From assembly GCA_027486835.1 (NCBI GenBank), contig JAIXOJ010000218.1, positions 1 through 33,959 of the forward strand: a stretch of DNA of 33,959 bases. The letters run 5' to 3'. Positions within the stretch are counted from its first letter, which is position 1; every line of letters begins with the position of its first letter. The stretch is from Chitinophagaceae bacterium (lineage in GTDB: Bacteria; Bacteroidota; Bacteroidia; Chitinophagales; Chitinophagaceae). Positions 1,176-33,759 of the stretch are shown here, in pieces. A program made the position numbers and the translations under genes. Under the pieces are notes generated by a model. The model ran no database searches. It worked only from the letters and a program-made list of their open reading frames with translations, and was not told the DNA's origin.

Positions 1176-3014
1176 ATGAACAGTCTGAAATTAGTTTTTT
1201 ATGTATCGGTTTTATTTTGCTACACCCATGTTTTTTCACAAACACGGATAACACATTATCAAACACCTTGCGATTCCATCAATGCGGGTGGTCAATACAC
1301 TTCAATTACAACAGCACCAAATGGAGATATTTATACAGCTTGGGTGGATGTTGGACGGAATTTTAAGGTATTGAGAATTAAAACCAATGGGACAAAAGAT
1401 TCCATCATTGTTAGGACTAATATTCAAATCAATCAGTATCACGTTCGCCCGTCCATAGTAATTGATAATACAGGATTCATTCATGTAACTGGCGACATGC
1501 ACACCCAACCTTGGGTATATTACAGGTCTTTATTGCCATACAATATCTTAGGAGGATTCCTGCAAGTATTCCCGCCAGGCTTTGGAATAACCTACGTTAA
1601 CTTCTTTAAGGATAAGAATGATTCCTTATACATCACATTTCGTCAACAAACTAAGCCCAATAGCACCGTAGGTTCCCGAGGTGGGGGAATTATGAAGTAC
1701 AGCACATTAAACAAGTCGTTTACTATGTTGGGAGGCACTAATCATGGCTTGGAAAAGACCGTAGTTTGGGTAAACAATGGCGGTGCTGGTACATTTAATC
1801 CTAGTACAGGCTTAACAACCCCAAGCCATTATCAGCAATTTGGCATTCAATTGTTTTTTGATAAAACCAATCGGATGCACTTGGCTTGTACCATAATAAA
1901 TGAAGCTACAACGGGTACTGCTTTTCATAATACACATGTTTTATATGCCTATTCTGATAATGGGGGAATAAGTTTTAAAAGAGTTGATGGTGCCGCTATT
2001 ACCTCCCTTCCAATGAATCCTATAAATATGAGTGTTGTAGAGGCCGTAAGTCCTGGAATTATCAATGCGGTGCCTTCTATCGGAGCATTTGATTCAGCCA
2101 CCCCGGTCATTTCTTATAGCTATAGGATACCGAATAGCGATGGACTTAGGTCAAGAATTCGGAAATGGAATGGAAGTAGTTGGGAGGTTATTACGCCTGG
2201 AGGTATAAATACCATTGGGCAAAATGATATTTTTTCAAGAAGGAACGGAGAAAGCATTTTCTGGGTAGATGCAAGCAATTATTATTATTTTACCAGGAAC
2301 AAAGGACTTACCTATATAAGATATAATATCACTCCAACAGTCAGCGGGCAAAGTGGTAGAATATTGGATGCTGATTATTTTATTAAATCAGGTAATATGC
2401 GATACAACAGTATGAGTAGTAACCTAACCAACTATACTTATTATACCGCCACTATAAATACCCCAACTTCAAGCCCATTGCCCATCAAAGTTGTCAGCTT
2501 TACAGGTAAGAAAGAAAGCAATAAAATTGTGTTGAGTATTCAAGCATGGACAGATAAAAACTCAGAAAAAATAGTAGTGCAAAAGTTGGATGTCTCCAAT
2601 AATGCTTGGAATGATTTGGGAGTGATTCAAAACTTTGATAACACTCAAGCACTAAGGAATTATAGTTTCATTGATGAAAATATAATTGCGAAAAACACCT
2701 ACAGATTGTTGTTGGTTGACAAAGATGGAAGTAGTTATTACGCTAAAGTGATTCAGGTGATGGACAATTTAGCTGAGCCAAAATCTGCTGTTGTTTATCC
2801 TAATCCTTGTAAAAGAGGAAGCAACCCCACTTTATTGATCAATAACCCTAAGCTGTTGGGTACTGATTATGTCATTCATGATGCGGTAGGAAGAATTGTG
2901 TACAAGGGTAAAATAAACAAATCGAATCAACTCATCTCTACTGAAGCCATTCCAAAAGGGTTTTATACAATATGTCTCAATAACCAAATCGCAATCAAGA
3001 TTAGTATAAATTAA
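1176..3014 (+). CDS. Secreted BNR_4-type beta-propeller protein with T9SS tail (candidate PL24/PL25/PL42/GH145-like enzyme), copy 1
   Basis: 612 residues. A signal peptide (about 1-21, ending FSQ) leads into a sevenfold-propeller-like region (about 25-425) with the BNR_4 signature YHVRPSIVIDNTGFIHVTGD (His89, His103, His109 nearby) and WVYYRS. Then comes a linker starting LPIKVVSFTGKKESN, common in T9SS cargo, and a sorting domain (VVYPNPCKRG ... GFYTICLNN) at about 537-612. From knowledge of the fold, BNR_4 propellers include ulvan lyases (PL24, PL25) and rhamnose-glucuronate cleaving enzymes (PL42, GH145), all using His-centred active sites. A role in cutting at glucuronate is inference. 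It is first in a tight operon, 9 bp before the next gene, and is a close paralog of the gene at 6713-8524. The exact family cannot be fixed by eye. Confidence 0.8.
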   Translation: MNSLKLVFYVSVLFCYTHVFSQTRITHYQTPCDSINAGGQYTSITTAPNGDIYTAWVDVGRNFKVLRIKTNGTKDSIIVRTNIQINQYHVRPSIVIDNTGFIHVTGDMHTQPWVYYRSLLPYNILGGFLQVFPPGFGITYVNFFKDKNDSLYITFRQQTKPNSTVGSRGGGIMKYSTLNKSFTMLGGTNHGLEKTVVWVNNGGAGTFNPSTGLTTPSHYQQFGIQLFFDKTNRMHLACTIINEATTGTAFHNTHVLYAYSDNGGISFKRVDGAAITSLPMNPINMSVVEAVSPGIINAVPSIGAFDSATPVISYSYRIPNSDGLRSRIRKWNGSSWEVITPGGINTIGQNDIFSRRNGESIFWVDASNYYYFTRNKGLTYIRYNITPTVSGQSGRILDADYFIKSGNMRYNSMSSNLTNYTYYTATINTPTSSPLPIKVVSFTGKKESNKIVLSIQAWTDKNSEKIVVQKLDVSNNAWNDLGVIQNFDNTQALRNYSFIDENIIAKNTYRLLLVDKDGSSYYAKVIQVMDNLAEPKSAVVYPNPCKRGSNPTLLINNPKLLGTDYVIHDAVGRIVYKGKINKSNQLISTEAIPKGFYTICLNNQIAIKISIN

Positions 3015-4567: not shown

Positions 4568-4570
4568 TTG

Positions 4571-6691
4571 ATGAAATTTCACTTTGCATCCATTGTATGC
4601 TGTTTCCTTTTGATTTCAAGCATAACAAAGGCACAAAAGAGTGCTGTTGTTTATGATAATCAGCGCATCAAAAGACCAACTGAAATTATGGATGTTACTG
4701 CCGATGATTTAAAGCTGAACGATTACTACAAAAGCAATTCTACTTCCAACCAAATATTTTGGAACAGGCAATCACTCATCAGATTAGGCGATTATTTTCA
4801 ACAAAATGAAAATGGGAAACAATTGTGGACCAACAAGATAAAAGAAACAGTTGCAATACTAAACCAATGGGATTTTAAACGCGGTGGGATGGGGGCTAAA
4901 CGGTATATCTATGCAGTTGAACAATTAGATGAGTTGGCTTTGATATATTATTTCACCCAAAACAAAGTTTTAGGACGATTTATCCAACAACATGTATTGC
5001 AAATAGCCAAACTTCCGATTGATTTTTGGCTACATGCCGAATTGAGAGGATATGATAAGGAGAAACCATTGGGTATGATTGAAACCGCCTCTCTCTGTAA
5101 TACGATTGCTGCATCCTTACATTTAATGGAAGGGTTATTAAGCATTGAAGAAAAGAAACAAGTTTCTGATTCATTAAGATGGAAAGGATTACAACCCTGT
5201 TTAAACTGGTTGGATAAACCTGGCAAAAACAATTTTACAGCAGTAATTAGTGCTGGTGCTTTTGTTGCGTCAAAATTTTTGAATGACACGGTAGGAAGGG
5301 ACAATGCGCAAAAAATAATGGTAGGGTATTTGGACAATTCACTGGAATCTGACGGTAGTTATGGAGAAGGTCCTGGATATTTTAACTACCCTATCAGCTC
5401 ATTATTACCCGCTGTTTTGTGTATGACCGAAACGGAAAGAGAAAAGATATTTAGTAAATCGGGGTTACGTAATTCAGCAATTTGGAAAGTATATCCCTAC
5501 TTTTTCTTTACCGATGTAAAAGGAAACTTACAACCCAACCTAATCCATTTTGGAGATAACAGCTATTCCGATGGCACATTTTTAAGCCCGCCTAAACAAA
5601 CCGTTAATGTGTTGCTTGCCAGTTTGTATCAAGATGGGTTAGCGGTTTGGCTAATGAATAAATTTAATTCCAAGTTGGATTTGAAAGAATTATTGTTACT
5701 TTTTTCCAATACCAAAGATTTGCCTAAAGCCATTTCACCCGAAGCATTAAAGCTTCCCACTATAAACTCCTTCAATAATGGCGATTGCTTTATTCGCTCT
5801 ACTTGGCAAAACAATGGTATAGTGTTAGGACTAAGAACGGGTAATGGGTCTCGTGTTGAGTTTAGCCACCAACGTCCCGAACTCAATTCAATTGGTATGG
5901 GTGCTTACGGTGAATATTTTATTGTTTCACCGGGAGCGGCATCCTATCGAAGCCCACTTTATTATTTATGGGACAGAAACACACGTTCCGCAAATACCAT
6001 ATCCATCGACGATTGCAACCAATTGTTTCCAGGAAACGGGAATTACCACTTTATAAAAATAGACAACGCTGCATTTTGGAAAGAAGGCACTCCCAAAGCA
6101 GAAATAACCCTATCTAATTCAAGCAAAATAGCAGATGTGTTGGTAAATGAAGCAGCAAAAGCTTATCCAACAAAAATGAACCATGCCCAGCGTGCCATCA
6201 TTTTTGTGAAAGACCCGGGCTATTTTGTTATGATTGACAAATTGGAAGCTGCCGATAGTAGTCATAAATACACTTGGCGCATTCATTTGAACAATCGGGA
6301 TGAAAAAGGCGTGATGAAGAAACAATCCAATCATCATTGGCAATTCAATCGTCCATTGGCAAATTTGAATGTTTACCTCTTTTCCAATCAAAGCATGTCC
6401 GTTGACACTGCTTCTGGTTACATGCATGGAGTTACGCGTGATTACAGTCCTGGTGGGGTTAATGAAGGTAAATTAGGCACCTCAATAGAGTTAGCAGCTT
6501 CTAACACAAGCAAAAGCAAGGCTATGATGTATTTTGCTGTTTTGTTTCCATATAAGTTTTCGCAAACAGTACCCGAGGTTTATTTTAAAGATGGAATATT
6601 GAGCGTTGGGAAGGATACATTTAAAATCAATAACAATCAATGTGAAATAAAACAAAAGGGGATTACTCAGTTGGTAGGTTTTAATTTCTGA
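4571..6691 (+). CDS. Secreted heparinase II/III-family protein (candidate polysaccharide lyase)
   Basis: About 706 residues. The TTG at 4568 directly precedes ATG 4571; ATG is preferred and gives the signal peptide MKFHFASIVCCFLLISSITK. The N-terminal half is an alpha/alpha toroid, with GSYGEGPGYFNY matching the S.GSY.EG..Y run of heparinase-II-type lyases. The C-terminal half is a beta-sandwich with SHQRPELNSIGMGAYGEYF (about residues 430-450), YLWDRNTRSANTISIDD and a later Ig-like region. This is the layout of PL8/12/15/17/21-type proteins that cleave uronate polymers by beta-elimination, but the usual HAHAD metal-site run is changed to SHQRPEL, so family and activity are uncertain. It is translated just after the DUF1961 gene and likely shares its mRNA. 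Confidence 0.75.
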   Translation: MKFHFASIVCCFLLISSITKAQKSAVVYDNQRIKRPTEIMDVTADDLKLNDYYKSNSTSNQIFWNRQSLIRLGDYFQQNENGKQLWTNKIKETVAILNQWDFKRGGMGAKRYIYAVEQLDELALIYYFTQNKVLGRFIQQHVLQIAKLPIDFWLHAELRGYDKEKPLGMIETASLCNTIAASLHLMEGLLSIEEKKQVSDSLRWKGLQPCLNWLDKPGKNNFTAVISAGAFVASKFLNDTVGRDNAQKIMVGYLDNSLESDGSYGEGPGYFNYPISSLLPAVLCMTETEREKIFSKSGLRNSAIWKVYPYFFFTDVKGNLQPNLIHFGDNSYSDGTFLSPPKQTVNVLLASLYQDGLAVWLMNKFNSKLDLKELLLLFSNTKDLPKAISPEALKLPTINSFNNGDCFIRSTWQNNGIVLGLRTGNGSRVEFSHQRPELNSIGMGAYGEYFIVSPGAASYRSPLYYLWDRNTRSANTISIDDCNQLFPGNGNYHFIKIDNAAFWKEGTPKAEITLSNSSKIADVLVNEAAKAYPTKMNHAQRAIIFVKDPGYFVMIDKLEAADSSHKYTWRIHLNNRDEKGVMKKQSNHHWQFNRPLANLNVYLFSNQSMSVDTASGYMHGVTRDYSPGGVNEGKLGTSIELAASNTSKSKAMMYFAVLFPYKFSQTVPEVYFKDGILSVGKDTFKINNNQCEIKQKGITQLVGFNF

Positions 6692-6712: not shown

Positions 6713-8524
6713 ATGAAAAGTTTGAAGTTAGTTTTTTATGTATTGGTTTTATTTTGGTTTACTAAAGCAGTATCGCAAACACGAATAACGCATTATAGTA
6801 AACGGTGTCATGAAGCAAATGCTGGTGGTTCATATACCTCCATCTCCACAGCACCAAACGGCGATATTTATTCGGCTTGGATGGATGAGAACCAGAATTT
6901 AAGAGTGTCTAAGATTACGATTGCAACCAATGTAAATACGGAGGTCATATTGCGCAATAACATGCAAATCAATAAATTCCACGTTAGACCGTCCATCGTG
7001 TTGGATAAATTAGGCTATGTCCATGTAGCAGCCGATATGCATAATCAAAACTGGGTGTACTACCGCTCCTTAAATCCTTTTAATATTAATCCATCCAATT
7101 TTGAAATGGTAACGCCACCGGGATTTTTGATTACTTATCCCAGTTTTTTTAAGGATAAAAATGATGACTTGTATATCACCTTTCGGCACAAGGTAAAACC
7201 CGCCCCTAATCTATCAACGCCTGGTTCAAGCGGTGGAGGAATCATAAGATATAACGCTGTCACCAAAGTATTTACCATGCTCGGTGGTACTAATCATGGT
7301 TTGGACAAAACTGTTGTTTGGGTAAATATGGGAGGGGCAGGAACATTCAATACAACTACTGGAATTACAACACCTGGTCATTATCAACAGCCAAGCATTC
7401 GTTTGTTCTTTGATAATAACAATAGGATGCACCTTGTTTGTAATTTAATCAATCAGCCTACCACAGGTGCTGCTGGAGCCAATACCCATGTATTGTATGC
7501 TTATTCTGATGATGGAGGAAATACCTTTAGAAGAATAAATGGTACTACTATTGGTGCATTGCCAATGGGACCTGACTCCATGACCGTTGTTATTTCTCGG
7601 ACACAAGCAGATATAGGTGCTGGTTGTCATATTGGTGCATTTGATACCAACAAGCCCATCATTTCTTGGAATAGTGCTGGAGATGGTAGTAGAATTGTTT
7701 TTTGGAATGGTAGAGCTTGGCAATTATTTGCACCAGGAGGTACTTATGCAGGTAGGAAATTGTATTCACGACCCAATGGAGAAACCCTGTTTTTTATTCC
7801 TGAATTTAATTATCTACTAAGAACCTTTAATGGGGGTCTTTCTTATCAACGGTATAATTTCACGCCTAAGTACAGCAATGCTAATACACAACCCACAGGA
7901 AGTGAAATAATGGATGCGGATTATTATATTAAATCAGGTAATGTAAGGTATCATTTTTCCAATAGTACAACAGAGGATACCATCTTTTTAACCACTATTC
8001 CTTTTAACCTACCCTTACCAGTTCGTTTAATTTCTTTTAGAGGTAATAAGGAGGAAAATCGAATTCTTTTGCAATGGTCGGCTACCAACGAAGAAGATGC
8101 CTTGTATTATATCGTAGAGAAGTTGCAGGAAAACAACGAATGGGCATCTAAAGACACAATTAAGATAATTCGCAATCAATCGAAAGCAAGCTATGGCTGG
8201 ACAGATGTTCAATTATCAGAGAAAAATGTTTATCGCTTGCGAATAGTCGAAAAAGATGGCGCAATTCATTTCAGCAGTTTGGTTACCATTAATTATGTAT
8301 CGAAAGAGCAAGTAATCTATGACCCACAAGCCAAACAAATCCTGATAAAAGATGCCATTAATACAACTAAAAATTCCACCTATTTCATCACCAACACATC
8401 GGGAATGCTGATGAAGAAAGGTGTTATCAATGCAACTCAATTGAATGTCGCTACCCTTCCTACTGGGGTTTACTATTTTCGTTCCTCCAATGGGTGGAAA
8501 CTTACATTCACCCATTTTAAATAA
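6713..8524 (+). CDS. Secreted BNR_4-type beta-propeller protein with T9SS-like tail, copy 2
   Basis: 603 residues, a clear paralog of the protein at 1176-3014. They share the signal peptide pattern (M.SLKLVFYV.VLF), the TRITHY start, STAPNGDIYSAW, FHVRPSIVLDKLGYVHVAAD (His90, His104, His110), FTMLGGTNHGLDKTVVWVN and GGAGTFN. By eye the propeller parts are roughly 60% identical, while linkers and tails diverge more. The linker begins LPLPVRLISFRGNKEENRI. The last about 75 residues keep the shape of a T9SS domain (NTSGMLMKKG ... LPTGVYYFRS) but lack the usual YPNP motif, so sorting may be weaker. It sits 22 bp after the heparinase-like gene and 7 bp before the beta-helix gene. Function is as uncertain as for copy 1; the duplication suggests two related linkages or endo/exo roles. 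Confidence 0.8.
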   Translation: MKSLKLVFYVLVLFWFTKAVSQTRITHYSKRCHEANAGGSYTSISTAPNGDIYSAWMDENQNLRVSKITIATNVNTEVILRNNMQINKFHVRPSIVLDKLGYVHVAADMHNQNWVYYRSLNPFNINPSNFEMVTPPGFLITYPSFFKDKNDDLYITFRHKVKPAPNLSTPGSSGGGIIRYNAVTKVFTMLGGTNHGLDKTVVWVNMGGAGTFNTTTGITTPGHYQQPSIRLFFDNNNRMHLVCNLINQPTTGAAGANTHVLYAYSDDGGNTFRRINGTTIGALPMGPDSMTVVISRTQADIGAGCHIGAFDTNKPIISWNSAGDGSRIVFWNGRAWQLFAPGGTYAGRKLYSRPNGETLFFIPEFNYLLRTFNGGLSYQRYNFTPKYSNANTQPTGSEIMDADYYIKSGNVRYHFSNSTTEDTIFLTTIPFNLPLPVRLISFRGNKEENRILLQWSATNEEDALYYIVEKLQENNEWASKDTIKIIRNQSKASYGWTDVQLSEKNVYRLRIVEKDGAIHFSSLVTINYVSKEQVIYDPQAKQILIKDAINTTKNSTYFITNTSGMLMKKGVINATQLNVATLPTGVYYFRSSNGWKLTFTHFK

Positions 8525-11486: not shown

Positions 11487-11631
11487 TTTGGCAAATTCAA
11501 AAATCTATTACAAACCCACGAAATCAACTGTAGGGGCAATCCCTTGTGGTTGCCCTTTCAAGGTAATAGAAATTGGAATCCCTTGTGGTTGCCCTTTCTA
11601 CGTAATCAATATTGCAATCCAATTTGCCAAA
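11487..11631. repeat. MITE-like 145-bp intergenic element with 11-bp inverted ends
   Basis: TTTGGCAAATT at 11487-11497 is the exact reverse complement of AATTTGCCAAA at 11621-11631. Between them are two copies of a hairpin sequence: GGGCAATCCC / GGTTGCCC at 11534-11555 and a truncated copy at about 11577-11598 (AATCCCTTGTGGTTGCCC). GGGCAA..TTGCCC hairpins of this kind recur between genes in many bacterial genomes. No gene is supported here. Confidence 0.55.
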
Positions 11632-11702: not shown

Positions 11703-11843
11703 TTACACAGAGAGCCACAGAGGTTACACAAAGCTTCACGGAGTTTTACTTCTCAGTGTATCTCTGTGCCTTCTCAGTGTATCTCTGTGCCTTCTCAGTG
11801 TATCTCTGTGTAACTCTGTGCCTTCTCAGTGTATCTCTGTGAA
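11703..11843. repeat. 21-bp tandem repeat with an inverted leader
   Basis: Four copies of a 21-bp unit beginning TTCTCAGTGTATCTCTGTG start at 11750, 11771, 11792 and 11823; the last two are separated by ACTCTGTGCC. Upstream, 11704-11742 holds the opposite orientation (ACACAGAG, CCACAGAGGTTACACA), so the block can fold into a large hairpin. Because 21 is a multiple of three, it yields a false repetitive reading frame. It belongs to the CTCTGTG-type intergenic repeats seen in several phyla. Confidence 0.75.
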
Positions 11844-11914: not shown

Positions 11915-13363
11915 ATGAATATGCGATTAATAATGAAGAAATGGGCTTTTTTACTGGTAGGGTGCTTATTGGCACTTACAATGGTGGATGGACAACAGAA
12001 AAATGGGTTTACTAATGCGGCGGACTATGGTTTTTCGCCTGATGCTTCTGGACTTGAAAATGCCAAAGCACTGCAAAAGGCGGTGGATATAGGCGGAACA
12101 GTGGTGGTGAGTGTACCCGGTAGTTATAAAATGGCGACTACTGTATATATTGGTAGTAACACCACCCTTCAATTTGGCAACAACATCTCTTTGAAAAAAG
12201 TAGATGAAAAAGGTGCTTTCACACATGTAATCCTCAATAAAGGCGCATTGACCAAAACCTACGACCAAAATATTGTAATTGACGGACTGCAAATTGTGGT
12301 GAACGGAATGGACAAGCAATACACGGAAATATTCGGGTTAAGGGGGCAGTTGGCATTCTTCTATGTCAAAGACCTCAAGATTACTCGCTTTCGTTGTTTG
12401 GATTTGATGAAGAATCAGTTTTGCATCCAAGTATGCACGTTTGAAGACTTAATTGTGGACGATGTAATCATCAAAGGGCAAAAAGACGGGGTGCATTTAG
12501 GACCAGGAAAACGTTTCAAAATCAGCAATGGCGTGTTCCAAACTTTTGATGATGCGGTGGCTTTAAATGCGCACGATTATGCTTCTTCCAACCCTGAATT
12601 GGGATGGATTGAAAACGGAATTGTAGAAAATTGTCACGACCTAACGGCAGAAAATACCACTGGATATTTCTGTAGGATTTTAGCTGGTGCATGGATTGAT
12701 TGGAAGGCAGGAATGGAAGTGCAACAATCAGATGCAGTGGTATCAAACGGTAGGATTTATAGGGTGCAAGCAAAACCAGATGGTACGATATATAAATCGC
12801 TCAATCCACCCACCCATGAAACAGGCAAAAAAGAAGTGGACGGCATCACTTGGGTGATGGTTCAAAAAGATACCATCCACACCTGTGGCGTAAGAAATGT
12901 AATCTTCAAGAATTTGTTTTTAGAAAAACCCCGCATCGGGCTATCCATTCATTTTGACAACGACAAGTTTAGCCGTTCCTACTATCCCGGAGCGCAAACC
13001 CCCGTTCAGGAGCAGTTGAGTTTTGATAACGTGCGGGTACTCCACAACAAAGCCATTCCTTTTTTAAACATTGGCACCCCAGTGGATGTGGTATCGATAA
13101 CCAACAGCAGCATCCGAAACAATAAAATCAATGTTTACACCAACAAGGCTTTGCAAGACTATTTGAAAACCACCATCAACATATATGGCTGCATATTCAA
13201 TAGCAAAGAACCAATGACCTTGCTTTCCAATAATGTGGACGGCAAAGAAATCTTCTTAAAAACCTTTGGTAATGTGGAATTAAACAAAGGCTTCTCTGCC
13301 AACATCGCAGCAGGCAATGGGAAGATTACGGTTGAGTCGGATTTGACTGGGTTGAAAAAGTAA
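11915..13363 (+). CDS. Secreted GH28-like right-handed beta-helix protein with inserted module
   Basis: 482 residues from ATG 11915. ATG 11933 (MKKWAFLLVGCLLALTMVDG) gives the cleanest signal peptide and may be the true start. The core resembles GH28 polygalacturonases: entry motif AADYGFSPDASG, then GQKDGVHLGPGKRF and FQTFDDAVALNAHD, matching the (N)TDG and DD catalytic runs. The usual GHG motif and RIK end are not found, so the catalytic set is incomplete or altered. Residues about 258-316 look like an inserted small beta module (WKAGMEV..SDAVVSNGRIYRV ... PPTHETG ... DGITWVMV), a pattern also found in phage tail and carbohydrate-active proteins. It stands alone between two repeat islands and probably has its own promoter. 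Confidence 0.7.
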   Translation: MNMRLIMKKWAFLLVGCLLALTMVDGQQKNGFTNAADYGFSPDASGLENAKALQKAVDIGGTVVVSVPGSYKMATTVYIGSNTTLQFGNNISLKKVDEKGAFTHVILNKGALTKTYDQNIVIDGLQIVVNGMDKQYTEIFGLRGQLAFFYVKDLKITRFRCLDLMKNQFCIQVCTFEDLIVDDVIIKGQKDGVHLGPGKRFKISNGVFQTFDDAVALNAHDYASSNPELGWIENGIVENCHDLTAENTTGYFCRILAGAWIDWKAGMEVQQSDAVVSNGRIYRVQAKPDGTIYKSLNPPTHETGKKEVDGITWVMVQKDTIHTCGVRNVIFKNLFLEKPRIGLSIHFDNDKFSRSYYPGAQTPVQEQLSFDNVRVLHNKAIPFLNIGTPVDVVSITNSSIRNNKINVYTNKALQDYLKTTINIYGCIFNSKEPMTLLSNNVDGKEIFLKTFGNVELNKGFSANIAAGNGKITVESDLTGLKK

Positions 13364-13400: not shown

Positions 13401-13417
13401 TGTGACTATATAGAGTT

Positions 13418-13674
13418 GTCGGCTTCTCGCAGCTTGATTTGGGTCGGCAAACAGGTTTGTCAGCTTCTCACAGCTTGATTTGCGTTGGCAAACCTGTTTG
13501 TCAGCCTCTCGCAGTCTGATTTGGGTCGGCAGATAGGTTTGTCTGCTTCTCCCAGCTTGATTTGGGTCGGCAAACAGGTTTGTCAGCTTCTCGCAGCCTG
13601 ATTTGGGTTGACAAACCTGTTTGTCAGCTTCTCGCAGCTTGATTTGGGTTGACAAACCTATTTGTCGGCTTCCA
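13418..13674. repeat. 41-bp direct tandem array, six full copies plus a partial
   Basis: Full units start at 13418, 13459, 13500, 13541, 13582 and 13623, with a partial copy from 13664. Each has GTC(A/G)GCTTCTC(G)CAG, then TTGATTTGGGT, then a near-palindrome. The unit end alternates between CAAACAGGTTTG and CAAACCTGTTTG, which are reverse complements of each other, so GACAAAC/GTTTGTC-type arms recur. Units touch with no spacers, so it is not CRISPR. It lies between the GH28-like and pyruvyl-transferase-like genes. Confidence 0.85.
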
Positions 13675-13800: not shown

Positions 13801-15048
13801 ATGAATAAATGTATCGTAGGGTTTTTGAGTATATGGATGGTTTTTTCACAGGTAGCTGCCCAACAGCCAGCTGCTAAAATACGTCCCGTAATTCTTTTAC
13901 GTTCTTCATGGCAAACCATCAATATTGGTGATATTGGGCATACCCCTGGCGTGATGGCATTGATTGAAAAACAACTCCCCGATGCAGATGTGATATTATG
14001 GGCTACCACTGTTGAAAATGGGGTAAGGGAAATGTTGCAAAAGCGGTTTCCCAAATTGAAAATTCTGTTGTCTTCCGATACGCTTGAATTGAAAAATGCT
14101 TTTAAGCAAAGCAGTTTTCTGCTGCATGGTTCAGGTCCTTGGTTGGTAGCAGACAAAGACATTAAAAAATGGGTGAAAGAAACGGGCAAGCCTTATGGCG
14201 TTTTTGGGATTACCCTGCCAGAAGAAAAAGCCACTCCCGAAGTGGTGGGCTTGTTGACCAATGCCCGATTTGTGTATTTCCGCGATACTGTTTCGTTGGA
14301 TGTTGCGAAAAGCAAGGGCGTTGGCTGCCCAGTGATGCAGTTTGGTCCAGATGGTGCTTTTGCTGTTGACCTGCGCAACGAGCCTGCCGCCGCCAAATTT
14401 TTGAAAGACAATCACCTCGAAGCAGGAAAATTCGTTTGTGTAATCCCCAAATACAGACGAACCCCCAAATGGAAAATCCCATCTGACCATGCCCCATACG
14501 ATTCTGCCATCAATGCCTTGAACGAATCAATGAAAGAGCATGATTTAAAGCCATACAGAGAAGCCATTATTGATTTAGTCCGTATATCAAAAATCAAAGT
14601 ATTGATATGTGCAGAAGATGTTACGCAAGTGGCTTTGGGCAAAGAAATGCTGTATGATCCGCTACCTGCCGATGTTAAAAAACAAGTGGTTTGGCGCAAT
14701 AAATATTGGTTGACCGACGAAGCATTGAGTGTATTTATCAAGTCCGCTGGCTTGTTTGGTTTGGAGCAGCATTCGCCCATTATGTGTATTGGCAATGGCA
14801 TCCCAGCCTTGTTGGGCAGGTATAAAGAACAGACTTCTAAAGGCTATATGTGGTACAATATCGGGCTGAAAGATTGGTTTTTTGATAGCGATGATGAAGT
14901 GGGGATGCAAAAATTATCTGAGACTATTCGTTCCATAGTTAGTAAACCAAAGGAAAGCAAGATAAAAGTCAAATCAGCCCAGCTAATTGTAAAGCAATTG
15001 CAAATTGGAATGATTGCACAACTTAAAAAGGAAATTTCAAAACCATAA
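13801..15048 (+). CDS. Exported polysaccharide-pyruvyl-transferase-family protein
   Basis: 415 residues. A signal peptide (1-21, FSQVAAQ) is followed by a PF04230-like domain: NIGDIGHTPG (about 41-50), FLLHGSGPW (106-114), YFRDTVSLDVAKSKG (159-173), FGPDGAFAVD (181-190) and a late LEQHSPIMCIGNGIPALL run, the counterpart of the R.H..I....G.P motif. Classic members add pyruvate ketals from phosphoenolpyruvate to sugars in the cytoplasm. Here the signal peptide predicts export, where that donor should be absent. In a degradation locus it may instead recognise or remove pyruvate from the substrate (inference), or be a repurposed glycan-binding protein. It follows a repeat island and is probably transcribed separately from upstream genes. 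Confidence 0.75.
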   Translation: MNKCIVGFLSIWMVFSQVAAQQPAAKIRPVILLRSSWQTINIGDIGHTPGVMALIEKQLPDADVILWATTVENGVREMLQKRFPKLKILLSSDTLELKNAFKQSSFLLHGSGPWLVADKDIKKWVKETGKPYGVFGITLPEEKATPEVVGLLTNARFVYFRDTVSLDVAKSKGVGCPVMQFGPDGAFAVDLRNEPAAAKFLKDNHLEAGKFVCVIPKYRRTPKWKIPSDHAPYDSAINALNESMKEHDLKPYREAIIDLVRISKIKVLICAEDVTQVALGKEMLYDPLPADVKKQVVWRNKYWLTDEALSVFIKSAGLFGLEQHSPIMCIGNGIPALLGRYKEQTSKGYMWYNIGLKDWFFDSDDEVGMQKLSETIRSIVSKPKESKIKVKSAQLIVKQLQIGMIAQLKKEISKP

Positions 15049-15340: not shown

Positions 15341-17479
15341 GTGAAAATTGTTATTTTATTATTGGTATGCTTTCTACACGTTGGTTTTGCGTTTTCGCAA
15401 AATTCAGGGTTAGAGAATATCAATATTCCCGCCGTAGTTAGCTCAGCAAACATTGAACGTGTTGTTTACCCTGATAACGCTGTTATAAATCTATATCAAG
15501 GCAATGGCAGGTTTGGTTGTTCTTATGGACCCTTGGGTTTACACATACATCCTTCTAAAGCAGACCAATTATCCAAGTATGGTAAAACACAATTTATGCA
15601 TCTGGATAATTGGGTGAGAGCTAAATATGGTGCTGATTATTTAATTCCTTTTGCTAAGATTTACTGGGAGAAAGAGCCTATAAATATTACTAATTACAAG
15701 CAAAGTCAATCCTTTTATGATGGGACTATTGTTACCCATTTTGATGATTCCGAAAATAAAATAACCCTAAAAACATGGTTTGACCCTATTGAAAAAGATT
15801 TAGCTGGATTTACAGTTGATGTAGAAGGAAACCCATCGGATATAATACTTGATCCATCTGAAACATTTGGAGTGCATTACAATCAACAATTAGTGCAGGT
15901 AGCAAAAGTTACTGGGGAATTGGGTTTGTGGAAGATTGCAACTGCTTGTTTAAATTTAAAATCAGTTATTTACCTAAAAACCAATGCAAAGGTTGAACTA
16001 CATGGAAGTAAACTGCATATCAAATTACATCGTGGAGAAAATGAGATTCAAATTTCAGTAAATAAACCGATTAGTGTAACAACAGCAAAATCAATAGAAC
16101 GAAATACCCTTTGGTGGCATTCAAAATGGAAAAAGTCAGGAATGTTAGTGTTACCAGAGCCAAATGCACAGAAAATGTGGGTTCGTTCAATGGCTCAATT
16201 TTTATCAACTTATTCGGATGGTGGTTTTGGATTCCCTCCTCCGATGGGATTTACTGGCAACGGGTGGCCTTTTAGTTTCCCACAAGACATTTCATTTATC
16301 CAACCAGTGTTGCTTTCCACTGGAAACATAAGCATCTCCAAAGTATGGGTGGAATATTTAGCCTCAGAAATTTCGGGAATGAAAGATTATACCAAGAGAT
16401 TATTAAGTGTAGATGGTGTTTTACTTCCATGGGTCTTTCCTTATGGAAAATTTGAAGGCTATCATTTTCCAGCCCCCCCCAATAAGTATTATTATGAAAT
16501 ACATAACTCAGGATATTTGGCAAGAATGGCTTATGAAACGGCTATTTATATCAATGATGATAAATGGAAGTTGAAATATGCTCAACCAATTGTGAAAGAA
16601 ACCGCTTTGTTTTATAAAAACATCTGTTCAAAAGGGAAGGACAATTTGTGGCACTTGATTGTTAAACCATCTATGGGACAGGATGAAATGGGCGGTGAAA
16701 ACCAAAGTGATTATTTATGTGCTTTGTATAGTGCAAAATACTGCTTTCAAAAAGCTATTGAGTATCATCTTGATGAGGATGGTGCTTACAAAGCAATCTT
16801 AAAAGATGGGCTTGCTTTTCCTTCATTATTATCAGAAAAAGGATATTACTTCACATCAAAGGGTAGTGGAGCAACCGATTTTGGAAAGCAAAAACATCCA
16901 GTTCAGTTAAACGACTTGGCTTATTTGCCCATTAGCAAAGACATTAACAATGCTTCGAGCATAGCTTATGAATATAGGTATGACCTAACACAGCATGCAA
17001 ACAAACCTTTCTTCTTTGGATGGACATTAGGAGCGTTTTTATTGGCGGGTTCAAGGATTGGAAATATGGAAGAATGGAAAAAAGATTGGGGAAATTTGTT
17101 GAAATCGGAGTATGTGGACGCTGATTGGATTCAAGTTTATGAAACCAGTGCTGTTTATAATGCCTCTTATTACACCACAACAAATGGATTGATAACTCAA
17201 TCGCTTATCAATAACATCATTTCAGATTGGTTTGGAAAATTAGAAATAGCTAAGTGCATTCCATGGAAAGGAAAGGTTGCCTTTGTAAATATTATGTCTT
17301 TATTGGGTGTGAAAATGAGTGGGGAAATCAATGGAGACTCAGCCAAAGTAGTTTTAACCGCTTGGAAAAATTGCAGTTTTGAATTGTTCAATGAAAAAAT
17401 TGTTTTAAAAAAGGGAGACCGCATTCATCTGAATCTTAATTTGAAAAAAAGGGAGGTAGTAAATAGCATTAAGCATTGA
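15341..17479 (+). CDS. Secreted six-hairpin glycosidase-like protein (GH95/GH65-like)
   Basis: 712 residues. GTG 15341 is the only start that includes the signal peptide (MKIVILLLVCFLHVGFAFSQ), since TAA lies directly upstream in frame. An N-terminal beta-sandwich with LYQGNGRFGCSYGPLG (about 50-65) recalls the GNG..G..V run of GH95 enzymes. A long (alpha/alpha)6 region follows: QDISFIQPVLL, NSGYLARMAYETA, GQDEMGGENQSDYLCALYSA, YETSAVYNASYYTTTNG. A short C-terminal beta domain closes it. GH95 enzymes hydrolyse alpha-L-fucosides or alpha-L-galactosides, but GH65-like and unclassified members are possible. The acid may lie in GQDEMGGE (inference). It is 182 bp after the stub and 149 bp before the GH2 relic. 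Confidence 0.65.
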   Translation: MKIVILLLVCFLHVGFAFSQNSGLENINIPAVVSSANIERVVYPDNAVINLYQGNGRFGCSYGPLGLHIHPSKADQLSKYGKTQFMHLDNWVRAKYGADYLIPFAKIYWEKEPINITNYKQSQSFYDGTIVTHFDDSENKITLKTWFDPIEKDLAGFTVDVEGNPSDIILDPSETFGVHYNQQLVQVAKVTGELGLWKIATACLNLKSVIYLKTNAKVELHGSKLHIKLHRGENEIQISVNKPISVTTAKSIERNTLWWHSKWKKSGMLVLPEPNAQKMWVRSMAQFLSTYSDGGFGFPPPMGFTGNGWPFSFPQDISFIQPVLLSTGNISISKVWVEYLASEISGMKDYTKRLLSVDGVLLPWVFPYGKFEGYHFPAPPNKYYYEIHNSGYLARMAYETAIYINDDKWKLKYAQPIVKETALFYKNICSKGKDNLWHLIVKPSMGQDEMGGENQSDYLCALYSAKYCFQKAIEYHLDEDGAYKAILKDGLAFPSLLSEKGYYFTSKGSGATDFGKQKHPVQLNDLAYLPISKDINNASSIAYEYRYDLTQHANKPFFFGWTLGAFLLAGSRIGNMEEWKKDWGNLLKSEYVDADWIQVYETSAVYNASYYTTTNGLITQSLINNIISDWFGKLEIAKCIPWKGKVAFVNIMSLLGVKMSGEINGDSAKVVLTAWKNCSFELFNEKIVLKKGDRIHLNLNLKKREVVNSIKH

Positions 17480-18214: not shown

Positions 18215-19546
18215 ATGAAATTCAAAATCGTAGATATGAAAATGGATAAATGCAAATATTATAGGTGTTTAATGATCGCAATTTGCTTCATCGTTTCTAT
18301 TGATGTAGTTACATCTCAGTCAGCATTTTTTAAACCATCTGATTTGGTCAAAACTGGTATTTATTATTATCCAGAGCAATGGGAAAAAAATCAGTGGGAG
18401 CGGGATATAAGGAACATCAAATCAATGGGTTTTGAGTTCATCCATATCGCTGAATTTGCTTGGGCCATGTTGGAACCAGAAGAAGGAAAATATGATTTTA
18501 GATGGCTGGACGAGGTGGTTTCGTTAGCACAAAAGCATGGGTTGCAAGTAATTATGTGTACCCCGACTGCTGCACCTCCAGTTTGGTTGACCCAAAAATA
18601 TCCAGAGGTATTATTGGTGAAAGAAGATGGCATTCAAGCAAAACATGGGGGTAGGCAGCACAATTCTTGGAGCAGCAAGAAATACAGGGAACTTTCTGAG
18701 AAAATAATCACAGCCTTGGCTACGCATTATGGCAACCATCCCTCAATATATGGTTGGCAAATTGACAACGAACCCTCACATGCAGGATTTGTGGATTATG
18801 GTCAGGCAGTAAAAACCAACTTTCAACGTTGGCTTAGTAAAAAATACGGAAAAATAGATAGTCTAAATTATGCTTGGGGCAACTCTTTTTGGAGCCAGCT
18901 ATATACATCCTTTGATCAAATAAATCTACCAAGTGCAAAAACAAATGTGGCACAGGTTAACCCTCATTCCTTGCTTGATTTTCAGCGGTTTAATGCGGAT
19001 GAATGCGCCGATTATGTTGCTTTTCAAGCAGAAATTTTGCATATACATGTTTCAAAAGCGCAATGGGTTACTACCAACTTTATGGAGTTTCACACCAAAG
19101 TAAATCCTTGGCTGAATGATAAAGATCTTGATTTTATATCCTACACCATGTATCCAGTAGGGGGCGGTTATACCAATATTGGCGGTTTAGGGGAGGAGGG
19201 GTTTCGGATTGGAATGCCTTCGAGGATTGCATTTGCCAATGATTTTTTTAGGTTTAAGAAACAGCAAACTGCTGTTATGGAGATGCAGCCCGGTCAGGTG
19301 AATTGGGGTTTTTATAATCCACAAACATACCCAGGTATTATCAGGGCTTGGTTGTGGAGTGCTTATGTTGGGGGCTGTAATTTAATTTGCTCCTATCGCT
19401 ACAGGCAGCCTTTGTTTGGTGGAGAGCAATACCATTATGGCATGGTAGGTACCGATGGTGTTACACCCAATGTTGGCGGAAGGGAGTATAGTACATTTAT
19501 CAAAGAGGTGAAACAACTAAGGGAATCCCTATCAATCCATAGCTAA
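18215..19546 (+). CDS. GH42 beta-galactosidase-like, N-terminal catalytic part (gene frameshifted)
   Basis: 443 residues from ATG 18215; ATG 18242 (MDKCKYYRCLMIAICF) is another possible start. After a signal peptide comes a GH42 TIM barrel: GIYYYPEQW (about 48-56), MGFEFIHIAEFAW, YGWQIDNEPSH with likely acid/base Glu186, and TAVMEMQPGQVNWG with likely nucleophile Glu356. The frame ends after YSTFIKEVKQLRESLSIHS at a TAA, while the natural continuation resumes in the +1 frame (next entry). The barrel itself is complete, so the fragment might fold, but GH42 enzymes normally need the following trimerisation and C-terminal domains. It starts 7 bp after the GH2 relic. Known GH42 proteins cleave beta-galactosides or alpha-L-arabinopyranosides. 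Confidence 0.85.
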   Translation: MKFKIVDMKMDKCKYYRCLMIAICFIVSIDVVTSQSAFFKPSDLVKTGIYYYPEQWEKNQWERDIRNIKSMGFEFIHIAEFAWAMLEPEEGKYDFRWLDEVVSLAQKHGLQVIMCTPTAAPPVWLTQKYPEVLLVKEDGIQAKHGGRQHNSWSSKKYRELSEKIITALATHYGNHPSIYGWQIDNEPSHAGFVDYGQAVKTNFQRWLSKKYGKIDSLNYAWGNSFWSQLYTSFDQINLPSAKTNVAQVNPHSLLDFQRFNADECADYVAFQAEILHIHVSKAQWVTTNFMEFHTKVNPWLNDKDLDFISYTMYPVGGGYTNIGGLGEEGFRIGMPSRIAFANDFFRFKKQQTAVMEMQPGQVNWGFYNPQTYPGIIRAWLWSAYVGGCNLICSYRYRQPLFGGEQYHYGMVGTDGVTPNVGGREYSTFIKEVKQLRESLSIHS

Positions 19547-20360
19547 TGAAAGGATACCTAAAGCATATTCAGCCAGAAAAACGGGCATACTTTGGAACTG
19601 GGATAACTATTGGGAAACAGAACTCCAGCCGCAGACCAATCAGTGGAATCCTGCTAAAGTGCTGTATAAATACCACCGTTTGCTCAAGGAAATAAATTGT
19701 CCAGTTGATTTTATTGTTGAGGATATGGATTTCCATAAATACCCCACCATTGTTGCGCCCATGTATCAATTAGTGGATGATGCCTTGATAGCGAAGCATA
19801 CCGACTATGTGCAACAAGGTGGTCATTTGATATTATCAGCAAGAGCGGGACAAAAAGATAAGAACGCGCATTTATGGGAATTGCCTTTTGGAAGCAAGAT
19901 TGAAAAACTGATAGGGAGCAAATTGCTTTTTTATGATGTGCTACCTGAAGATAAAATAGGAACTATAATCATGAAAAATCAAACCTATAAATGGAACAAT
20001 TGGGCAGATATTCTCCAACCTATGAAAGGAACAGAAACCCTTGCTACTTATAGCAACCAATTTTATAAAAACAAAGCAGCAGCCACTCATGTAAAGTTGG
20101 GCAAAGGTTCCGTAACCTACATAGGGCCAGACACAGATGATGGTAAGTTGGAAAAAGAAATTATTGCTACTTCATTCACCAAAGCCAACATTGCTATAAA
20201 AAAATTGCCGGAAGGGCTTATGCTCGATTGGCGGGATGGTTTTTGGGTTGCGGTCAATTATCATTCAGAGAAAAGCATCCAACTACCTGTTGATGAAAAA
20301 ACGCATTTGCTTATTGGAAATAAGCTATTAAAGCCAGCTGAAGTTGCAGTTTGGCGGTAA
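19545..20360 (+). pseudogene. GH42 beta-galactosidase, C-terminal part in shifted frame
   Basis: From 19545 the +1 frame reads NERIPKAYSARKTGILWNWD, then NYWETELQPQTNQWNPAKVL, then YKYHRLLKEINCPVDFI, which is the GH42 trimerisation (Rossmann-like) domain. It ends with the small C-terminal beta domain (GLMLDWRDGFWVAVNYHSEK) and TAA at 20358-20360. The only start codon inside (GTG 19659) cuts into the domain, so this is not an independent gene. One base lost, or two gained, near 19520-19546 would explain the break. With the upstream part the intact protein would be about 714 residues, normal for GH42. Whether the break is real or an assembly error cannot be told here. Confidence 0.8.
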
Positions 20361-24599: not shown

Positions 24600-25790
24600 A
24601 TGAAGAGAAAGTACTTATATGCAGGTTTTGTCTTTCAGATGTTGTTGTGTTTGCCCATTTCCTGTCTTTTTTCCCAAGCTCTTTCTCTGGAAAAAATATT
24701 CGCCAATGCCCAATCCCATTATACAAATGCTTTGAAAGCAAACACCGATAGCACCAAAATACCAAGAAGCACTTTGCCAGATGGTAGTTTGAAACTTGTG
24801 AAAAGCAATGATTGGTGTAGTGGTTTTTTTGCGGGCAATCTGTGGTATTTGTTTCAAGCAACCAAGCAACCTGATTGGAAGAAAGCGGCAATCAAATGGA
24901 CTGCAGCTATTGAGAAAGAAAAGTTCAACAAAACCACCCATGATTTAGGGTTTATGATGTATTGTTCCTTTGGATCAGGGTATAACCTGACCAAAGACGC
25001 AGACTATAAAAAGATATTGATTCAATCTGCCAAATCATTGGCTTCTCGCTTTAAACCAAAAGTAGGAGTAATTCGTAGTTGGGATTTTGGTACATGGCAA
25101 TATCCAGTAATAATAGACAATATGATGAACCTTGAGCTATTGTTTGAAGCCACCAAACTAAGCGGCGACAGCAGTTTTAGAAAAATTGCCATTGCCCATG
25201 CCGACCACGATATGCAGCATCATTTTCGTAAAGATTACAGCAGCTACCATGTGGTGGATTATGATAGCACCGATGGACATCCCATCAAAAAGCAAACCCA
25301 CCAAGGCTATAACGATGAATCTTCTTGGGCAAGAGGACAAGGATGGGGCTTATATGGATTTACTGTTATGTATCGCTACACAAAAAATAAAAAGTATTTG
25401 AATCAAGCAGAAAAAATTGCTGCTTTCATTTTAAATCATCCCAATTTACCCAAAGACAAAGTACCTTATTGGGATTTTAATGCACCCAATATTCCATATG
25501 AAGAGCGGGATGCTTCTGCCGCCGCTGTTATTGCTTCTGCCTTGTTGGAATTGTCTAATTATTCCAAAGCAAACGCAGTTTTTTACCGTAAAAATGCCAA
25601 AGAAATATTGGTAAGTTTATCTTCAGATGAATACACCGCCAAGCCAGGTAGCAACAATAATTTCATTTTAAAACACTGTGTAGGCAGTAAGCCACATGGT
25701 GCAAAAGGAGAAATTGATGCACCCTTGAATTATGCGGATTATTACTATTTAGAAGCTTTGTTGAGGTATAAAGCGATTGTGAAAAATTAA
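24600..25790 (+). CDS. Secreted GH88 unsaturated glucuronyl hydrolase
   Basis: 396 residues with signal peptide ending LFSQ (about 26). The alpha/alpha barrel shows DWCSGFFAGNLWYLF (71-85), TTHDLGFMMY with Asp115, YPVIIDNMMNLELLF with Asp173, and the later THQGYNDESSWARGQGWGLY run conserved in this family. Known GH88 enzymes hydrate the vinyl-ether of unsaturated uronyl ends made by lyases, which splits the glycosidic bond. Its presence is the best evidence that real lyases act in this locus. It is followed directly by the lipoprotein gene (3 bp gap), so the two are likely co-translated. Confidence 0.92.
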   Translation: MKRKYLYAGFVFQMLLCLPISCLFSQALSLEKIFANAQSHYTNALKANTDSTKIPRSTLPDGSLKLVKSNDWCSGFFAGNLWYLFQATKQPDWKKAAIKWTAAIEKEKFNKTTHDLGFMMYCSFGSGYNLTKDADYKKILIQSAKSLASRFKPKVGVIRSWDFGTWQYPVIIDNMMNLELLFEATKLSGDSSFRKIAIAHADHDMQHHFRKDYSSYHVVDYDSTDGHPIKKQTHQGYNDESSWARGQGWGLYGFTVMYRYTKNKKYLNQAEKIAAFILNHPNLPKDKVPYWDFNAPNIPYEERDASAAAVIASALLELSNYSKANAVFYRKNAKEILVSLSSDEYTAKPGSNNNFILKHCVGSKPHGAKGEIDAPLNYADYYYLEALLRYKAIVKN

Positions 25791-32718: not shown

Positions 32719-33759
32719 TCATGCTGCTTTTATCGTATTTCTTGTAAAATTCTTTACAGTATCCCATTTTTCATTCAGGGACATTGTTTTGAGGTTAATC
32801 ATATGCTGCGCACCTTCTTTACTCCACCTTTGCCCAGCTCGTTTCATCCTATCTTGAATCAACGTTCGGTGTGCAGATTCAATTGCTCCTGAGCCAATTA
32901 TCCCAGCTCCAATCGTTTTATATTTTTTGTAATCCATCCTATTTTTGTTTGCCTCATAGTAGGCTATCAACTTTTCAGCCGTTTCCTTGGCTTTCCCGTT
33001 GTTTGCAGCTTTCCTTATATTCTCTATAACTATTTCTGTTTCGCTCTCCAATAAAAGTTCAGCTTGTTTTTCAACCCAAAGATTCCCTTCTGATTTATCT
33101 TTAAACAACACTTCCTTAAACGCATGTAAATGTTCTAACGCATGGTAATAATCCAAGATTGCTATTGAACCTGGATAGGTATCCTCAATCCACTTCCGTA
33201 TCCAAGTGGCACCATCTGATAAGAATACCAAACGCTGGGGATGTATGGAGTAGTTGTCTAATATTTTTTCCACATTTCCAGTGAACTGTTTACTTGTTCC
33301 CAGATGCCCGTAATATTGTGAATGCCTTATCCAGCTTGACTTTCCATTCGGGTCAACACAGTCAGAGGCCTTAAATAGCCGCATCACCTTTACCTCTTTC
33401 CAATCATCATCTCTAGTAAATAACATCGACCCGTCAATAGCTGAGTACAGGATATCGTTACCCTTTACTTCGGACAGGCTGGGTTTTAAAAGTACTGAAT
33501 CATCACTACAGGAAGCACCATAAAAGTCGGTAATCGTATTCACCTGCATACCGCTTATATCAACTCTCAAAAAACGTTTCAAAATGTCGTTCCCTTGCTC
33601 ATAAACATCTAACTGGCCAGCATAAGTGATTAATTCCTGCAACATAGGACTGTAACGAAAACCATTCACATTTTCACTAAAAGGATGGGAGTTACTGATG
33701 GTTATCCTTCCTAAAGTCGTTTCCAGAGTTTTTTTTTCGCTTATCCGCAGGTAACTCAC
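32719..33759 (-). CDS. ISKra4-family transposase, main (C-terminal) frame
   Basis: 346 codons, of which the first eight or so (MSYLRISE) are probably only the overlap with the other frame. A DDE core is visible: YSAIDGSMLF (Asp109), LVFLSDGATWIRKW (Asp182) and the family-typical GSGAIESAHRTLIQDRMKRA (Glu294). The end is KEGAQHMINLKTMSLNEKWD. It carries out cut-and-paste type movement of the element. It overlaps the upstream frame by 68 bp and needs a frame change at the A9 run (33729-33737 on the + strand, as T9) to join it. Joined, the protein would be about 395 residues, the usual size. Confidence 0.8.
   Translation of the reverse strand: MSYLRISEKKTLETTLGRITISNSHPFSENVNGFRYSPMLQELITYAGQLDVYEQGNDILKRFLRVDISGMQVNTITDFYGASCSDDSVLLKPSLSEVKGNDILYSAIDGSMLFTRDDDWKEVKVMRLFKASDCVDPNGKSSWIRHSQYYGHLGTSKQFTGNVEKILDNYSIHPQRLVFLSDGATWIRKWIEDTYPGSIAILDYYHALEHLHAFKEVLFKDKSEGNLWVEKQAELLLESETEIVIENIRKAANNGKAKETAEKLIAYYEANKNRMDYKKYKTIGAGIIGSGAIESAHRTLIQDRMKRAGQRWSKEGAQHMINLKTMSLNEKWDTVKNFTRNTIKAA

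Follow-up and report, generated by a model that had tools for sequence, protein, structure and literature searches.

An exported relative of the ketal pyruvyltransferases, encoded in a glycan-degradation locus of a Chitinophagaceae bacterium, may act as a pyruvate-ketal hydrolase; we put the probability of this reading at a little over one in three. The exported family to which the protein belongs is likely to have a glycan-catabolic role and, to judge from its sequences, quite probably does not consist of PEP-dependent transferases. The window, i.e. the whole stretch of DNA analysed (33,959 nucleotides), is a whole contig, JAIXOJ010000218.1. The gene and its export signal are located as follows:

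13801..15048, + strand: exported PF04230-fold protein, 415 amino acids, ATG start (ORF list, Pfam, AlphaFold)
13801..13860, + strand: Sec-type signal peptide, residues 1–20, with a proposed cleavage between VAA and QQ, as read from the sequence

PF04230 was the only Pfam match of this ORF (31.1 bits, cut-off 25.3, E 2.8e-7, residues 41–214), and an NCBIfam search at E 1e-3 gave no matches. A paralogue from the same genome (G000:C93), which shares 44–49% identity with the window protein and carries its own signal peptide, scored 24.9 bits against PF04230, just below the cut-off. The N-terminus of the ORF, MNKCIVGFLSIWMVFSQVAA followed by QQPAAK, was read by eye as a Sec signal peptide, and the window protein is almost certainly exported. 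No start codon was read in this frame between codon 13 (ATG) and codon 51, so that a later start would cut off the NIGD motif together with the first strand. A cytoplasmic start downstream of the apparent signal peptide, which the preliminary description had set against export, was checked for; a mis-called signal peptide was rejected, as the frame offers no usable later start codon. A mis-called start on an ordinary cytoplasmic pyruvyltransferase is a very improbable explanation: the Pfam name speaks for it and nothing further was found, while the missing later start, the Sec, lipoprotein and Tat signals across the family, and the loss of the phosphate-binding Arg speak against it. The family name in Pfam, 'polysaccharide pyruvyl transferase', implies a biosynthetic role, which is probably wrong for the exported branch. 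Just 5' of the gene, a 41-bp unit is repeated in tandem some 6.3 times (13416–13672), and other short arrays occur at 11536–11620 and 11749–11841.

The family was sampled by a scan of GTDB contigs, seeded with an alignment of three sequences (the window protein, its same-genome paralogue, and a homologue from genome G347). At least 593 matching stretches were obtained, at least 495 of which encode a relative, and the best 80 relatives were kept. These belong to Bacteroidota, Verrucomicrobiota, and Planctomycetota, with one Acidobacteriota MAG. A regular-expression and hydropathy script identified an export-type N-terminus in 79 of the 80 and a twin-arginine pattern in 75, and flagged seven as lipoproteins. 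Relative L087 has no export-type N-terminus at the start chosen, and the signal type of L012, with both a twin-arginine pattern and a lipobox-like Cys, is ambiguous. Since the scan used patterns from outside the signal region, the excess of export signals is not an artefact of the search. Export, as claimed in the preliminary description, is thus backed by the signal peptide of the window protein and by those of its relatives. A single-protein search found the family in two of 395 sampled Bacteroidota genomes, one of them the window's own, and the family is therefore patchy in this phylum. Judged by their sequences, exported PF04230 proteins form a family that reaches beyond one locus and spans several phyla, with mostly Tat-type signals and with tandem arrays.

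A tree of 70 rows included 65 exported members (without near-duplicates, L071, and L087) and five of 12 non-exported ones. The latter sit on very long branches, and the backbone is poorly resolved. The window protein falls into a Sec/lipoprotein clade of six rows (support 100/98), which is joined by three Tat rows (100/96). With this clade nested in a largely Tat tree, a switch of export route seems to have occurred in the lineage of the window protein. Tat substrates are exported in the folded state, which is compatible with a periplasmic transferase that uses another donor or carries its donor out inside the folded protein; the fold and motifs of a transferase are also in line with this. We consider such an activity improbable, since the window clade is Sec-type and Sec would not carry a preloaded ligand, the gene setting is catabolic, and we know of no donor pool for such a transferase in the periplasm.

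The AlphaFold model of the window protein (48 sequences; pLDDT 93.6, pTM 0.90) has a predicted GT-B-like, two-Rossmann fold. Foldseek matched this model to GT-B proteins, with a UDP-GlcNAc 2-epimerase on top and query TM values of 0.46–0.58 (best 50 of 278 matches, E 0.001); Pvg1 and WbbZ were absent from these best 50. According to the accessible part of the WbbZ study, 2-epimerases likewise dominate the structural matches of WbbZ after Pvg1 (PMC10629545). The similarity to 2-epimerases and other GT-B enzymes would also suit a GT-B-fold lyase, hydrolase, or phosphorolytic enzyme of another kind that has nothing to do with pyruvate and whose substrates are glycans, acidic or not, as would the diverse neighbours of the family (e.g. 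FAD_oxidored, SASA, GDSL, and GH29). This is unlikely, three pyruvyltransferase motifs being kept in 97 of 97 rows.

Sequence searches against solved structures gave no matches with the window protein alone or with a profile of the exported family; a profile of 12 non-exported PF04230 members reached WbbZ (6x1l) and Pvg1 (5ax7). Profile–profile comparison aligned the exported family with 12 non-exported Bacteroidota members (96.4%, E 1.1e-9, 296 columns) and paired R161, H324, E322, and K347 with positions of the PEP site. Conservation was scored in 97 sequences, namely the 80 relatives, 14 tandem paralogues, the window protein, L002, and L004. The key positions are:

13921..13932, + strand: N41-I-G-D44, the NxGD motif of ketal pyruvyltransferases; N, G, and D in 97/97
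14281..14283, + strand: R161, which the profile alignment equates with the PEP-carboxylate Arg (R217 of Pvg1, R148 of CsaB); 97/97
14614..14616, + strand: E272, invariant Glu after a strand end; 97/97, most often His in non-exported PF04230 proteins
14764..14772, + strand: E322-Q-H324; E and H in 97/97, identified by profile alignment and segregation with export
14839..14841, + strand: K347, matched to CsaB K328 and Pvg1 K361 by the profile alignment only, as the MAFFT alignment does not pair Lys with Lys; 97/97

The motif residues of ketal pyruvyltransferases (N41, G43, D44, R161, S165, and H324) were present in all 97 sequences. Together with the Pfam score above cut-off, the invariant NxGD, RxxxS, and His confirm the PF04230-like motifs noted earlier. 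D44, H47, R161, E272, E307, E322, H324, R340, and K347 never varied. Thirteen of the 31 invariant positions are among the six residues that follow the end of a strand, a zone that holds 20% of all positions; in the GT-B fold, it is the cleft edge. The accessible part of PMC10629545 lists the motifs NxGD, Rxxx(S/T), and His, describes Pvg1 D106, of which D44 is taken as the match, as acceptor-binding, and reports a model of Pvg1 with R217 at the carboxylate of PEP and R337 at its phosphate. For CsaB, the part accessible of PMC10435577 describes mutation of R148, H308, and K328, which matter for PEP binding. In the profile alignment, E322 of the exported family is aligned with the Arg two residues before the active-site His. 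It thus replaces the PEP-phosphate Arg (Pvg1 R337, CsaB R306), and the His is kept as H324 (H339 and H308, respectively). The PEP site, whose intactness the preliminary description would have counted against a new activity, proved to be altered: the carboxylate Arg is kept, and Glu stands in place of the phosphate Arg in 97/97. This exchange, along with export, lowers the case for an ordinary PEP-dependent transferase. The phosphate Arg is not universal in non-exported PF04230 proteins either, being found in 12 of 17 in the within-genome set described below and in nine of 12 in the profile set.

For this set, 20 genomes were picked for holding the family, and all of their 54 PF04230 matches were retrieved. 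The position of the phosphate Arg was occupied by Glu in 36 proteins and by other residues in 17 (Arg in 12); one protein was unscored (in-frame stop). All 36 scored Glu-type proteins had an export-type N-terminus (one start corrected) versus none of the 17 others, eight of which had unclear starts and were inspected further, with export signals seen in none. The position of E272 was Glu in 37 of 37 Glu-type rows (36 and the window) versus one of 17 others, seven of which had His. These associations do not represent many independent events, as the Glu-type proteins seem to form what is in essence a single lineage. The unscored protein possesses a Tat-type signal and has the Glu beyond the stop. 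A family member with an in-frame TAG, past which family-like sequence continues in frame, was recorded at G411:C50:203551-204474.

The gene setting in the window was examined in 20 scanned ORFs. Neighbours supported by Pfam include two BNR_4 proteins, DUF1961/3keto-disac_hyd, heparinase II/III, a pectate-lyase-like protein, MFS, GH42, GH39, GH29, GH88, and two GH92 proteins. The lyases and glycosidases around the gene uphold the glycan-degradation setting given in the preliminary description. The neighbours considered further are:

1176..3014, + strand: BNR_4 protein carrying a T9SS sorting domain (match above the cut-off of NCBIfam, below that of Pfam)
4568..6691, + strand: heparinase II/III-like lyase (Pfam)
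6713..8524, + strand: BNR_4 protein, 49% identity to the gene directly upstream in L013
8531..10213, + strand: pectate-lyase-like protein, 73% identity to the gene directly upstream in L008
10225..11460, + strand: MFS transporter with weak similarity to aromatic-acid and sialate symporters
11915..13363, + strand: GH28-like protein (weak, below the cut-off), 73% identical to a neighbour of the family in L013 and 70% to one in L017
23114..24457, + strand: GH29 alpha-L-fucosidase-like protein (Pfam, comparison with loci of relatives)
24600..25790, + strand: GH88-family protein (unsaturated uronyl hydrolase family), 56% identity to a neighbour in L013

Relatives of the window MFS transporter occur beside the family in L013 (71% identity) and, in three copies, in L061 (53–65%). 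The GH42 beta-galactosidase is split over two frames at 18215–20360 (catalytic part 18215–19546, trimerisation domain from 19659), which suggests a frameshift or an assembly error. Directly downstream of the PF04230 gene, at 15341–17479, a 712-amino-acid exported-looking protein without Pfam or NCBIfam match is encoded; no relatives of it were found at E 1e-8 in loci L006–L087. Close to the end of the contig, the minus strand carries a UPF0236-family ORF (32719–33759); UPF0236 proteins are often linked to mobile elements.

After clustering at 85% identity, 57 loci of relatives were left, 24 of them from Bacteroidota. BLAST clusters placed a SusC-type gene in the fetched flank of 17 of the 24 Bacteroidota loci and a SusD-type gene in that of 16, including L018. 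SusD lies directly upstream on the same strand in L011, L020, L021, L030, L039, L057, and L061. L018, where the SusD relative is on the other strand from an antisense ORF at position -1 with no Pfam matches, adds one, giving 8/24. For the seven, P ranges from 3e-9 to 7e-6 at base rates of 66–159 SusD per 5000–6500 genes. SusD counts in 11 genomes were 10–95, those for G405 and G406 being at least values (95 scored of 159 and of 107). Among 65 upstream neighbours from 23 loci, Pfam recognised 10 SusD proteins and nine with the TonB plug; four SusD and two SusC proteins, including one pair from L007, were checked singly. The order sigma/FecR/SusC/SusD was seen in several Bacteroidota loci, and eight contain tandem copies of the family, two to four each, with four in L020 from Runella. 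In the eight cases of SusD directly upstream and in this gene order, the Bacteroidota loci are like SusCD polysaccharide utilization loci (PULs); in the window, no SusC or SusD matches were seen among the 20 ORFs scanned, on a contig that ends at the window ends.

The locus in Emticicia (L013) has BNR_4, MFS, GH88, GH28-like, and GH29 in common with the window (best matches 31–73% identity) and also holds SusD and a SusC fragment. In Larkinella terrae (L040:1355-12578), SusC, SusD, and a PL8 lyase are followed by three exported PF04230 paralogues. Two exported PF04230 copies precede a SASA-type esterase in Spirosoma validum (L061:11241-14726 and beyond), where the three relatives of the window MFS transporter follow the exported copies, as if transporter and enzyme had been co-amplified. 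An FAD-dependent oxidoreductase (PF12831) is encoded directly upstream of the family member at L007:7232-10328, and seemingly the same BLAST cluster is present in L017, L019, L020, L037, L042, L058, and L077.

In the 33 loci from Verrucomicrobiota, Planctomycetota, and Acidobacteriota, the neighbours were mixed (98 scanned of 135 found within three genes), the commonest being DUF1501, FAD_oxidored, and PQQ at three each; gene calling was crude in high-GC loci, so that neighbour counts there are lower bounds. The control comprised 18 PF04230 loci, left from 23 matches after removal of the two from the window genome, the weakest one, and the second member in two genomes. Its 107 neighbours were rich in glycosyltransferases (15, 14, and 10 members in the top three families), with no SusC or SusD among the top 25 of 99 neighbour families. 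Thus, the exported family in Bacteroidota is found with glycan-breakdown genes, whereas non-exported PF04230 proteins are found among glycosyltransferases. The PUL association proposed earlier recurs with SusCD-type loci in Bacteroidota; in Verrucomicrobiota and Planctomycetota, the neighbourhoods are mixed.

The position right after SusD in eight of the 24 Bacteroidota loci and the tandem copies would also fit a glycan-binding protein, SusE/SusF-like or periplasmic, whose old cleft would bind pyruvylated or uronic sugars in the manner of a lectin, as would the lipobox of some members. We hold this to be rather unlikely, since most members are Tat-type without lipobox and the invariant charged set, including E272, E307, E322, and H324, looks catalytic.

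The main rival reading is that the protein acts on delta-4,5-unsaturated uronides from polysaccharide lyases. The vinyl-ether carboxylate of such a uronide resembles the enolpyruvyl group of PEP, and the old site, which keeps the carboxylate Arg and the His, could therefore protonate and hydrate it without phosphate. Hepar_II_III is found beside the family in the window, L037, and L058; PL8 lies between SusD and the three tandem copies in L040; BNR_4 is present in the window and L013, with a BNR_4 relative in L011; and GH88-type proteins occur in the window, L013, and L020 (the L020 match is under the Pfam cut-off). GH88, Hepar_II_III, or BNR_4 was encoded within 20 kb of nine of 29 Glu-type loci versus 2.1 expected (P 4e-4, 21 genomes), one of the nine (G402) resting on a GH88 match under the Pfam cut-off; without the window, the figure was eight of 28 (P 1e-3). 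The association with GH88 and BNR_4 suggested in the preliminary description, here with heparinase II/III added, is therefore real as an enrichment but far from universal, as no gene of the three families lies within 20 kb in 20 of the 29 loci, with short contigs in some cases. These 20 loci also count against the uronide reading, as do the GH88 enzymes that already do the same job in some of the same loci, and the chemistry is one that we infer. It is thus an unlikely though serious candidate. GH88/GH105 unsaturated uronyl hydrolases would be like the window protein in a possibly similar vinyl-ether carboxylate chemistry and share several loci with the family, but the window protein has no GH88 match in Pfam, and the GH88/GH105 fold differs from that of PF04230.

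We return to the preferred reading, pyruvate-ketal hydrolysis. PEP should be absent from the compartment of the exported family. Being exported and having lost a key part of the donor site, these proteins probably serve to dismantle acidic sugars and not to decorate them, and the simplest chemistry would be hydrolysis at an acidic, pyruvate-derived group. In the proposed scenario, a PEP-dependent ketal pyruvyltransferase gained an export signal, lost the PEP-phosphate pocket, and became a periplasmic glycan-breakdown enzyme. Its substrates would be acidic oligosaccharides, in many relatives those imported by SusC/SusD. Arg161 would hold the carboxylate and Asp44 the sugar, while Glu322 and Glu272, a newly acidic pair, may provide acid/base chemistry with His324, so that the ancestral reaction would run as hydrolysis: water would attack the ketal carbon and free pyruvate would leave the pyruvylated sugar. 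Tandem paralogues may serve different ketals or sugars. The neighbouring MFS carrier may take up the organic-acid product into the cytoplasm, which would fit a ketal or a uronide substrate, and no nearby gene proves a pyruvylated one.

The known PEP-dependent ketal pyruvyltransferases CsaB, Pvg1, WbbZ, and WcfO share with the window protein PF04230 membership, the GT-B-like fold, NxGD, RxxxS, the His, and the carboxylate Arg. The exported family differs from them in its export signal, the exchange of the phosphate Arg for an invariant Glu, and the second invariant Glu, E272. We are not aware of any PUL enzyme class with this fold. Among the polymers that bear pyruvate ketals are xanthan, algal galactans, capsules, and those of the cell wall. 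In the accessible part of a 2018 paper, enzymes that metabolise or degrade pyruvylated sugar chains were said to remain to be identified (PMC6090015). The same source describes PvGal-ase, a beta-galactosidase releasing pyruvylated galactose; like the enzyme proposed here, it breaks down pyruvylated glycans, but it frees the whole pyruvylated sugar and not pyruvate. No saccharide depyruvylase was found among the open-access papers listed, including the accessible parts of PMC6090015, PMC10881899, and PMC6801904. Nor did we find a report of an exported or PUL-linked pyruvyl transferase family among the papers listed from this literature, with most subscription papers outside its scope; of two papers matched, as far as the accessible text goes, one dealt with a cluster for polysaccharide biosynthesis and the other with a list of starch-induced genes that includes glycosyltransferases.

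The exported branch of the pyruvyltransferase fold may, tentatively, be the first class of enzymes to strip saccharides of ketal-linked pyruvate, with a synthetic PEP site made hydrolytic by the Arg-to-Glu exchange and with amplification in dedicated SusCD loci, in at least three phyla. If an unsaturated uronide is the substrate instead, the family would, to our knowledge, represent a new fold for that reaction. The locus of Larkinella terrae offers a compact model for experiments, and with an exported family so defined and its active-site change explicit, the depyruvylase question becomes directly testable.
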